Origin: Actinoplanes lobatus
GTDB lineage: Bacteria > Actinomycetota > Actinomycetes > Mycobacteriales > Micromonosporaceae
Direction of reading: 5' to 3'
Length of the DNA: 64,000 nt
Assembly (NCBI RefSeq): GCF_014205215.1
Contig: NZ_JACHNC010000001.1
Coordinates: 3,291,001 to 3,355,000 of the forward strand
Positions 63,295 to 64,000 of this stretch are shown here, piece by piece. The stretch's first letter is position 1. Every line of letters begins with the position of its first letter. The notes beneath the pieces were generated by a model. It did not search any database and was not told where the DNA came from. It saw only the letters and a list, made by a program, of their open reading frames with translations. The translations under genes were made by a program, and so were the position numbers.

Positions 63295-63347
63295 GACATG
63301 GTTGTCCACAGGTTGGATCCACGGGTGGCGCCGACGATCGATCCTGT

Positions 63348-63353
63348 TAGGAT
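63348..63353 (+). promoter_or_regulatory. -10 box of the SOS-type gene
   Basis: TAGGAT ends 6 nt before the ATG at 63360, as for a leaderless transcript. Confidence 0.55.
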
Positions 63354-63369
63354 TCGAACATGCGTTCGA
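63354..63369. promoter_or_regulatory. Perfect actinobacterial LexA (SOS) box
   Basis: TCGAAC-ATGC-GTTCGA is identical to the consensus TCGAACNNNNGTTCGA known for mycobacterial LexA. The ATG of the next gene (63360-63362) lies in its central spacer, immediately after a -10 box. Confidence 0.85.
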
Positions 63370-63704
63370 CGACATCGAACACCCCGGCCGCAAGGCTAGG
63401 TCCGACCGCGCAGAGCATGTCGGCTGCCCTTGCCGGCCGCGCGGCCCGGGTGACCCCCGGTTCCGCGCGTGACCCACTCGACCGTCTCCGCACGCGTGAG
63501 CGGATCGAGTCGATCGCCCGGCTTCGTGCCGCGGCTCGCGCCCTCGGAGACGTCGACGTCTCCGGGTGGGACGACGACACCCTCACCGATCACCTCGATG
63601 ACCTCTCCCGGGTGCTCTGCACGCTCGATGCCGAGCTGGCCCGCGTCGCGGACGCGGTCCGGGCCCGTGGCTTCCGCATCGCGGAGGAGCCCAAGGCCGC
63701 ATGA
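63360..63704 (+). CDS. LexA-regulated small protein, function unknown
   Basis: A 114-aa soluble protein. About 40 residues of Ser/Ala/Pro-rich, basic sequence precede an alpha-helical domain (RLRTRERIESIARLRAAARA, then DDDTLTDHLDDLSRVLCTLD and ELARVADAVRARG) with coiled-coil potential. I know no family. A perfect LexA box covers its start codon, so DNA damage should induce it. An ATP-dependent ligase gene follows 52 bp later. The start is fixed by the -10 box and the SOS box; the mRNA is probably leaderless. Confidence 0.7.
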   Translation: MRSTTSNTPAARLGPTAQSMSAALAGRAARVTPGSARDPLDRLRTRERIESIARLRAAARALGDVDVSGWDDDTLTDHLDDLSRVLCTLDAELARVADAVRARGFRIAEEPKAA

Positions 63705-63756
63705 CCGTGCGCGTGCGGGGACACGAAAGACGTAACCGGCTGTCAGGATGGAGATC

Positions 63757-64000
63757 GTGCGGTTTCTCGACATAGCAGCCACCTCGGCCGCCGTCGCCGC
63801 GACCTCGGGCCGCAAGGCCAAGATCGAGCTGCTGGCCGGGGCGTTGCGGCGTCTCGACCCCGGTGAGATCGTCGCCGGGGCGGCGTTCCTGGCCGGCGAG
63901 CTGCGGCAGCGGCAGACCGGCGTGGGCTGGGCGTCCCTGCGTGAGCGGCCACCCGCCGCCGTCGCGGCCACGCTCACCGTGGCCGCGGTCGACGCCGCGA
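63757..64000 (+). CDS. ATP-dependent DNA ligase, LigB-like, 5' part
   Basis: 81 codons are in the window. RFLDIAATSAAVAATSGRKAK, then IELLAGALRRLDPGEIVAGA and GELRQRQTGVGWASLRE match, from memory, the N-terminal DNA-binding domain of the actinobacterial ATP-dependent ligase LigB. The catalytic KxDG motif lies beyond the window. GTG 63757 follows GGATGGAG; an ATG three codons earlier is possible. It follows the SOS-type gene on the same strand, so damage-induced readthrough is plausible. Confidence 0.8.
   Translation, partial: MRFLDIAATSAAVAATSGRKAKIELLAGALRRLDPGEIVAGAAFLAGELRQRQTGVGWASLRERPPAAVAATLTVAAVDAA

Follow-up and report, generated by a model that had tools for sequence, protein, structure and literature searches.

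Among the closest described systems are the actinobacterial LexA regulons of Streptomyces venezuelae (PMC9380542) and Mycobacterium tuberculosis (PMC4181829), which, in the portions of these papers available to us, share with the locus described below the same class of operator and its placement at promoters. In the available part of the S. venezuelae table, positioned boxes begin at -199 to -14 relative to the start codon, with the exception of infC at +91 (PMC9380542). The M. tuberculosis regulon, as far as the accessible text goes, includes several 13E12 genes (PMC5005354; PMC4181829), and LexA of that organism is translated from a start located at its transcription start (PMC2897130, in extract). 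Leaderless transcription is also documented closer to the organism examined here, since the available text on Actinoplanes sp. SE50/110 assigns 1179 transcription starts to leaderless transcripts and gives the -10 motif as TAnnnT (PMC7682106). A literature search for the combination of Micromonospora, LexA, and DNA damage found no paper titled on it.

Here, a window of 64,000 nucleotides from Actinoplanes lobatus (the whole stretch of DNA that was analysed) is examined with respect to a 114-aa gene that is, with high probability, a LexA-repressed, leaderless SOS gene; LexA binding, the leaderless start, and induction are what we infer from the sequence. The features concerned are the following.

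63348-63353, forward strand: -10 element TAGGAT (TANNNT), read from the sequence and adjoining the LexA box.
63354-63369, no strand assigned: putative LexA operator (SOS box), TCGAAC-ATGC-GTTCGA (TCGAACATGCGTTCGA), with 0 mismatches, overlapping the start codon and codons 2-4.
63360-63362, forward strand: ATG start codon and predicted transcription start (+1), six bases after the -10 element.
63360-63704, forward strand: coding sequence of 114 aa, with a variable tail at residues ~1-37 followed by a predicted two-helix hairpin (38-63, 72-102).
63748-64000, forward strand: LigB-type ATP-dependent DNA ligase of 512 aa, following the small gene and cut by the end of the window.

The initial annotation had described a perfect actinobacterial SOS box at 63354-63369 that begins directly after TAGGAT and carries the ATG of the 114-aa gene in its spacer, and all of this was borne out at the same positions, with no mismatch to TCGAACN4GTTCGA. 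A window-wide pattern scan returned this site as the sole perfect one, and 48 sites, versus 27.5 expected, when up to 3 mismatches were accepted. The box has its first base at -6 and holds the ATG, whereas of the S. venezuelae boxes in the available table it is the one at -14 that would reach the start codon (PMC9380542). Relative to the leaderless genes of strain SE50/110, as far as they are described in the accessible text (PMC7682106), the TAnnnT -10 element and the predicted +1 start are alike, but here the operator also overlaps the first codons. Judging from the spacing between promoter and ATG, the mRNA of the 114-aa gene would be leaderless. It should be noted that the -10 element is overlapped by a perfect 5-bp inverted repeat at 63341-63353 (ATCCT-GTT-AGGAT), and that TCCTGTTAGGA is retained by most home-genus loci but not by those of other genera; in the home-genus loci, C is found at -17 in 97% and G at -10 in 98%.

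A total of 354 Micromonosporaceae genomes were searched, of which 263 matched a first alignment of the protein and 275 a later one (E 0.01; 12 marginal), and the reading covered 110 of these 275. An initial set of 97 loci was composed of 1 from a genome-wide pattern search, 6 from named Actinoplanes contigs, the 30 best matches, 36 from all other home-genus genomes that matched, and 24 from other genera, hand-picked among the matches listed; two records of the window and some pairs from the same genome are among them, leaving 90 loci distinct at the DNA level. In all 97 loci (90 distinct) the start ATG lies in frame inside the spacer of a LexA-like palindrome, with 0 mismatches in 69 of these palindromes, 1 in 24, 2 in 3, and 3 in 1. 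Among the 90 distinct loci the box takes the forms TCGAACATGCGTTCGA (45), TCGAACATGAGTTCGA (17), TCGAACATGAGTACGA (11), and TCGAACATGCGTACGA (7), with six rarer forms accounting for 10 together. The leaderless geometry that had been proposed for the window recurs throughout: the gap between the end of TANNNT and the box is 0 bases in 50 of the 90 distinct loci, 1 in 39, and 2 in 1, placing a -10 element 6-8 bases ahead of the start codon in every one, and the same motif occurs three times in total at offsets 3-49.

Counter-examples were sought among genomes that carry the protein but lack the pattern TCGAACATGMGTWCGA, which is present somewhere in 238 of the 354 Micromonosporaceae genomes. All 20 genomes picked and read in this way have a related palindrome on the ATG, with TANNNT at offset 0 or 1; 18 of them carry TCGTAC-ATGA-GTACGA, in which both halves are altered together, and the other 2 carry TCGAAC-ATGT-GTACGA and TCGAAC-ATGC-GTACTA. 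Homologues thus keep the box at the same place (97/97 and 20/20), and the total of start codons within a palindrome is 117/117. Judged from the 97/97 loci that retain it, conservation of the palindrome around the ATG exceeds chance. The loci are, however, related, and the counts are not independent trials; the conservation of the non-coding left half and the paired changes of the half-sites form the stronger argument for a constraint by DNA binding on the first codons. A RecA-NDp promoter (TTGTCRGTG-N8-TANNNT) beside the LexA site was considered as a general feature and rejected, since it was found, with up to 2 mismatches allowed, in 4 of the 90 distinct loci, none of them in the home genus (backwards control 0). 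The four loci with the RecA-NDp-like motif at the same promoter (L081, L090, L091, and L092) suggest a putative dual damage control in some genera.

The protein is 68-134 aa long in the loci read, L076 apart, and its last ~60 residues are conserved. The initial annotation had called the product helical, in agreement with an AlphaFold2 model built on 22 sequences, which predicts a low-confidence tail followed by helices at residues 38-63 and 72-102 (pLDDT 86-96 by blocks over residues 41-100; pTM 0.45). Sequence searches of Pfam, NCBIfam, and PDB returned chance-level matches only, and a Foldseek search of the model against PDB returned no match. In a class sample the family was detected in 3 of 256 genomes, each of them Micromonosporaceae. 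Many genomes of one genus (g23) show two matches to the hairpin profile per genome. In L076 (genome G037) the frame continues beyond the usual stop to 379 aa and the profile match ends at position 90; the extension is read here as a frameshift or an assembly fault.

The sequence pattern of the small protein resembles a stretch that precedes the Pfam DUF222 model and extends into it, and the two were compared by profile alignment. The DUF222 side comprised 28 N-termini, namely 27 loci of one set and 1 from this genome; three of the set's 30 loci were left out, L187 because it probably duplicates L186, along with L202 and L203. With 21 core sequences from which the window protein was excluded, hhalign gave a probability of 91.5% and a score of 34.1 over 56 columns at 13% identity, nearly end to end. 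Reversed profiles scored 16.9 and 16.9, the best of 100 column shuffles 14.0, and 49 windows taken from the ligase, M20, and M48 alignments reached 16.0 at most; an FAD protein alignment of 7 sequences was left out of this last control. An alignment headed by the window protein gave 77.3% and a score of 30.0 (reversed 18.5), and a combined alignment of 35 rows gave 86.4% and 32.6 (reversed 18.1), such that the match is weaker for the window's own group than for the 21-sequence core. The hairpin is probably a relative of the one at the N-terminus of 13E12/DUF222 proteins, though the similarity is not proof of descent. In DUF222 HNH proteins the PF02720 core and an HNH motif follow this region, whereas the small protein consists of the hairpin and a variable tail alone. 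Searches of 22 members with a cut-off of E 10, at which filters nevertheless remove most matches above 0.1, gave no match to PF02720, and the small protein, which stops after the hairpin, has no HNH family match.

A second point of likeness to 13E12/DUF222, besides the N-terminal helical hairpin detected by profile, is a LexA box over the start in some genes. Forty DUF222 genes were inspected, these being the best-scoring listed of 78 matches, from four genomes of one other family of the order (presumably mycobacterial). A LexA box with up to 2 mismatches holds an in-frame start in 26 of the 40 and is lacking from this position in 14, which gives no unbiased rate because the genes are the best-scoring ones, include many paralogues, and come from four genomes. 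The ATG occupies box position 7 in 5 of these genes (MRS, MSS, and MLS starts), all 5 with TANNNT 0-1 bases ahead. In 18 genes the start lies at box position 9 (MFE, MFD, MYD, and similar), with no TANNNT wholly ahead of the box within 5 bases, and in 3 genes at position 5, the last of these being doubtful. By eye, tgtcggtg or a similar string is often seen slightly before the LexA box of these DUF222 genes (L204-L243). On this evidence, the design in which an operator lies over a start codon is shared with 13E12 genes and thus a known one; our literature search found no description of such an overlap for 13E12 LexA boxes, which may well be contained in Davis 2002 or Smollett 2012. What would be new is the stand-alone hairpin family, the overlap kept in every one of the loci read, and the sequence evidence of operator-written codons.

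The 13% identity and the short amphipathic helices, along with the lack of a Pfam or NCBIfam match to DUF222 and of a fold match in PDB, would also fit an independent small coiled-coil family whose sequence pattern and promoter are convergent with those of 13E12/DUF222. This explanation is unlikely, although it is the one that survives best: the scores of 34.1 and 30.0 compare with controls of at most 18.5 (reversed), 14.0 (shuffled), and 16.0 (unrelated windows), the alignment is nearly end to end, and some DUF222 genes likewise start inside a LexA box.

The ligase start lies 44 bases past the end of the small gene in the window, and the neighbourhood noted there at the outset turned out to be a conserved one, as a same-strand LigB-type ligase is found 3' of the small gene in 95 of the 97 loci; in the DNA fetched around the small gene in L042 and L077, no ligase was found. 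The distance between the two genes ranges from 13 to 2757 bases (median 130; a negative value for L076 is an artefact of its frame), and because of this range an operon or a functional link to LigB would be only weakly indicated. As a conserved neighbour, the ligase is without a box of its own: none with up to 2 mismatches was found within 150 bases upstream of it in the 95 loci that have the small gene. Genomes that lack the small gene were examined as well. Of 22 chosen (G109 being a marginal profile match), 16 had a ligase match, and the 17 loci of these 16 were scanned; G327 and G180 (three loci) were excluded because of partial ligase matches, the G180 contig seeming to end inside the ligase, and 14 genomes with a full-length ligase, one of them from the home genus (G025), were counted. 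In these 14, the 1.5 kb upstream of the ligase yielded no small gene and no box with up to 2 mismatches, and because of this distribution the box is assigned to the small gene rather than to the ligase. At 63744-63759, CAGGAT stands 7 bases ahead of a GTG at 63757, compared with the ATG start at 63748, and many ligases of relatives align only from residue 4 (tblastn). The ligase may itself be leaderless, with its true start at GTG 63757.

These data bear on the possibility that the SOS target is the downstream ligase and that the small open reading frame is mainly a regulated leader. The position of LigB 3' of the gene in nearly all loci, and the short distance between the two in the window, speak for such an arrangement. 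It is nonetheless improbable, given that the core of the small protein is conserved, that the ligase may lie as far as 2757 bases away, that it has no box in the 14 genomes that lack the small gene, and that it has a CAGGAT-7-GTG arrangement of its own.

The reading of the small gene as the LexA target depends on the palindrome being a LexA operator, and similar sites were looked for elsewhere in the genome and the class. Perfect TCGAACN4GTTCGA occurs 4 times in the 10.4-Mb genome versus 0 times for the pattern read backwards, and 60 versus 15 times when one mismatch is allowed. A LexA gene is present (an open reading frame in L107), and ahead of the part coding for its DNA-binding domain lie three sites that each have 2 mismatches; recA of this genome has two upstream sites, with 2 and 3 mismatches respectively. 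The locus in the window presents an operator in the promoter, a genome-encoded LexA with upstream sites of its own, and a site that is kept in orthologues. Another perfect box (L102:4122-4137) lies ~63 bases upstream of a gene that resembles dcd (dCTP deaminase). By eye, a further perfect LexA-like box is found in the middle of a longer inverted repeat (L103:4506-4542) just after a gene that is presumably mscL from its appearance; it is perhaps a terminator rather than an operator. Additionally, a one-mismatch box on the minus strand (L130:1998-2013) reads, by eye, TCGAACCC-ATG-TCCGA behind CTAGAT and is possibly another leaderless gene with a box over its start. In the class sample, TCGAACATGNGTTCGA is present in 117 of 296 genomes, and TANNNT is found within 2 bases at 1 of 30 other TCGAACATGNGTTCGA sites (one site from each of 30 genomes). 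Because of this 1/30, the promoter geometry is judged to be peculiar to the 114-aa gene family and some DUF222 genes and is not a property of the motif.

It is conceivable that a dimeric regulator different from LexA binds the palindrome and that the gene lies outside SOS control. In 22 of 89 distinct genes the right half reads GTACGA (codon 3 ACG), one base off the consensus, which would be in keeping with this idea. The idea is nevertheless more improbable than that of a ligase target. The sequence in the window equals the LexA consensus as published in the available part of PMC4181829, similar sites stand by lexA and recA of the same genome, and boxes with the TCGTAC/GTAC half-site (dnaE2-1 and dnaE2-2) are marked as experimentally validated in the accessible S. 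venezuelae LexA data (PMC9380542).

If the palindrome is a LexA operator, codons 2-4 would follow the needs of LexA because the right half of the operator is those codons. That the operator constrains the first amino acids had been proposed from the window alone, and the homologues support the proposal. Codon 2 is CGT in 56 and AGT in 33 of the 89 distinct genes, such that its third base is T in 89/89 versus 732/7352 later codons (10%); one further variant, from the 20-genome set, has TGT. Residue 2 therefore varies among Arg, Ser, and Cys via one free base of the spacer, and the operator bases GT are constant. Information content for the 65 home-genus sequences is 1.92 bits per base in the box, 0.37 in the region from -45 to -20, and 0.56 in the codons after the box; the corresponding values for other genera (24 sequences) are 1.84, 0.38, and 1.39, and the contrast between box and protein is weak outside the home genus because the codons after the box are also conserved there. 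Nonetheless, the T-ending codon 2 in 89/89 and the joint change of the half-sites indicate that DNA binding, rather than the protein, best explains the first codons. The converse, that the protein or leaderless translation is what keeps these codons conserved, with the palindrome as a by-product, could draw on the common start M-[RS]-[ST]-N, on preferences that leaderless AUG contexts may have, and on the conserved downstream codons outside the home genus, but it is scarcely credible given a left half that lies outside the gene and is equally conserved, a codon 2 that switches among Arg, Ser, and Cys with its last two bases fixed as GT, half-sites that change together, and codons after the box that are far less conserved than the box in the home genus. 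Four public protein entries (P0030, P0033, P0058 with 82 aa, and P0075 with 65 aa) have annotated starts downstream of the LexA-box ATG, and P0033 is identical to the L028 protein from residue 16 of the latter; the annotated starts of all four are probably too late. The closest named proteins to that of the window are from Actinoplanes, and those annotated in A. missouriensis (AMIS_10790) and Actinoplanes sp. SE50 (ACWT_1178) begin with MRS, like the window protein.

Taken as a LexA operator, the site suggests the following course of regulation. A LexA dimer on the palindrome would cover approximately -6 to +10, against the -10 element, and would block RNA polymerase. Upon DNA damage, LexA would be cleaved and the promoter freed, transcription would begin at the A of the ATG or a neighbouring base, with ribosomes initiating on the 5' AUG of the resulting leaderless message. 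The right half of the operator would double as codons 2-4 (M-R/S/C-S/T-N/I/T/K), which would be set by LexA and not by the protein. The product may be a non-enzymatic, damage-induced protein-protein module, probably dimerising, that acts on a repair enzyme via its helices. Such an adaptor function is put forward tentatively, the partner being a guess; LigB is a candidate by neighbourhood alone, likewise as a guess. More speculative still is the proposal of a new class of SOS effector, in which a detached 13E12 hairpin switches or recruits a repair enzyme and in which the operator wrote the first amino acids. If true, much of the Micromonosporaceae would have kept the hairpin as an autonomous gene under LexA control, with a product acting on a DUF222 HNH protein or on LigB.

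Beyond this proposal, the locus would offer a clean case in which regulatory DNA dictates protein sequence. For annotation, it indicates that start codons can be pinned down by a LexA box, and that some public entries, at 65 or 82 aa, probably begin too late. The small protein would also offer a minimal version of the 13E12 hairpin, encoded by a conserved and unannotated candidate SOS gene of a family to which antibiotic producers belong.
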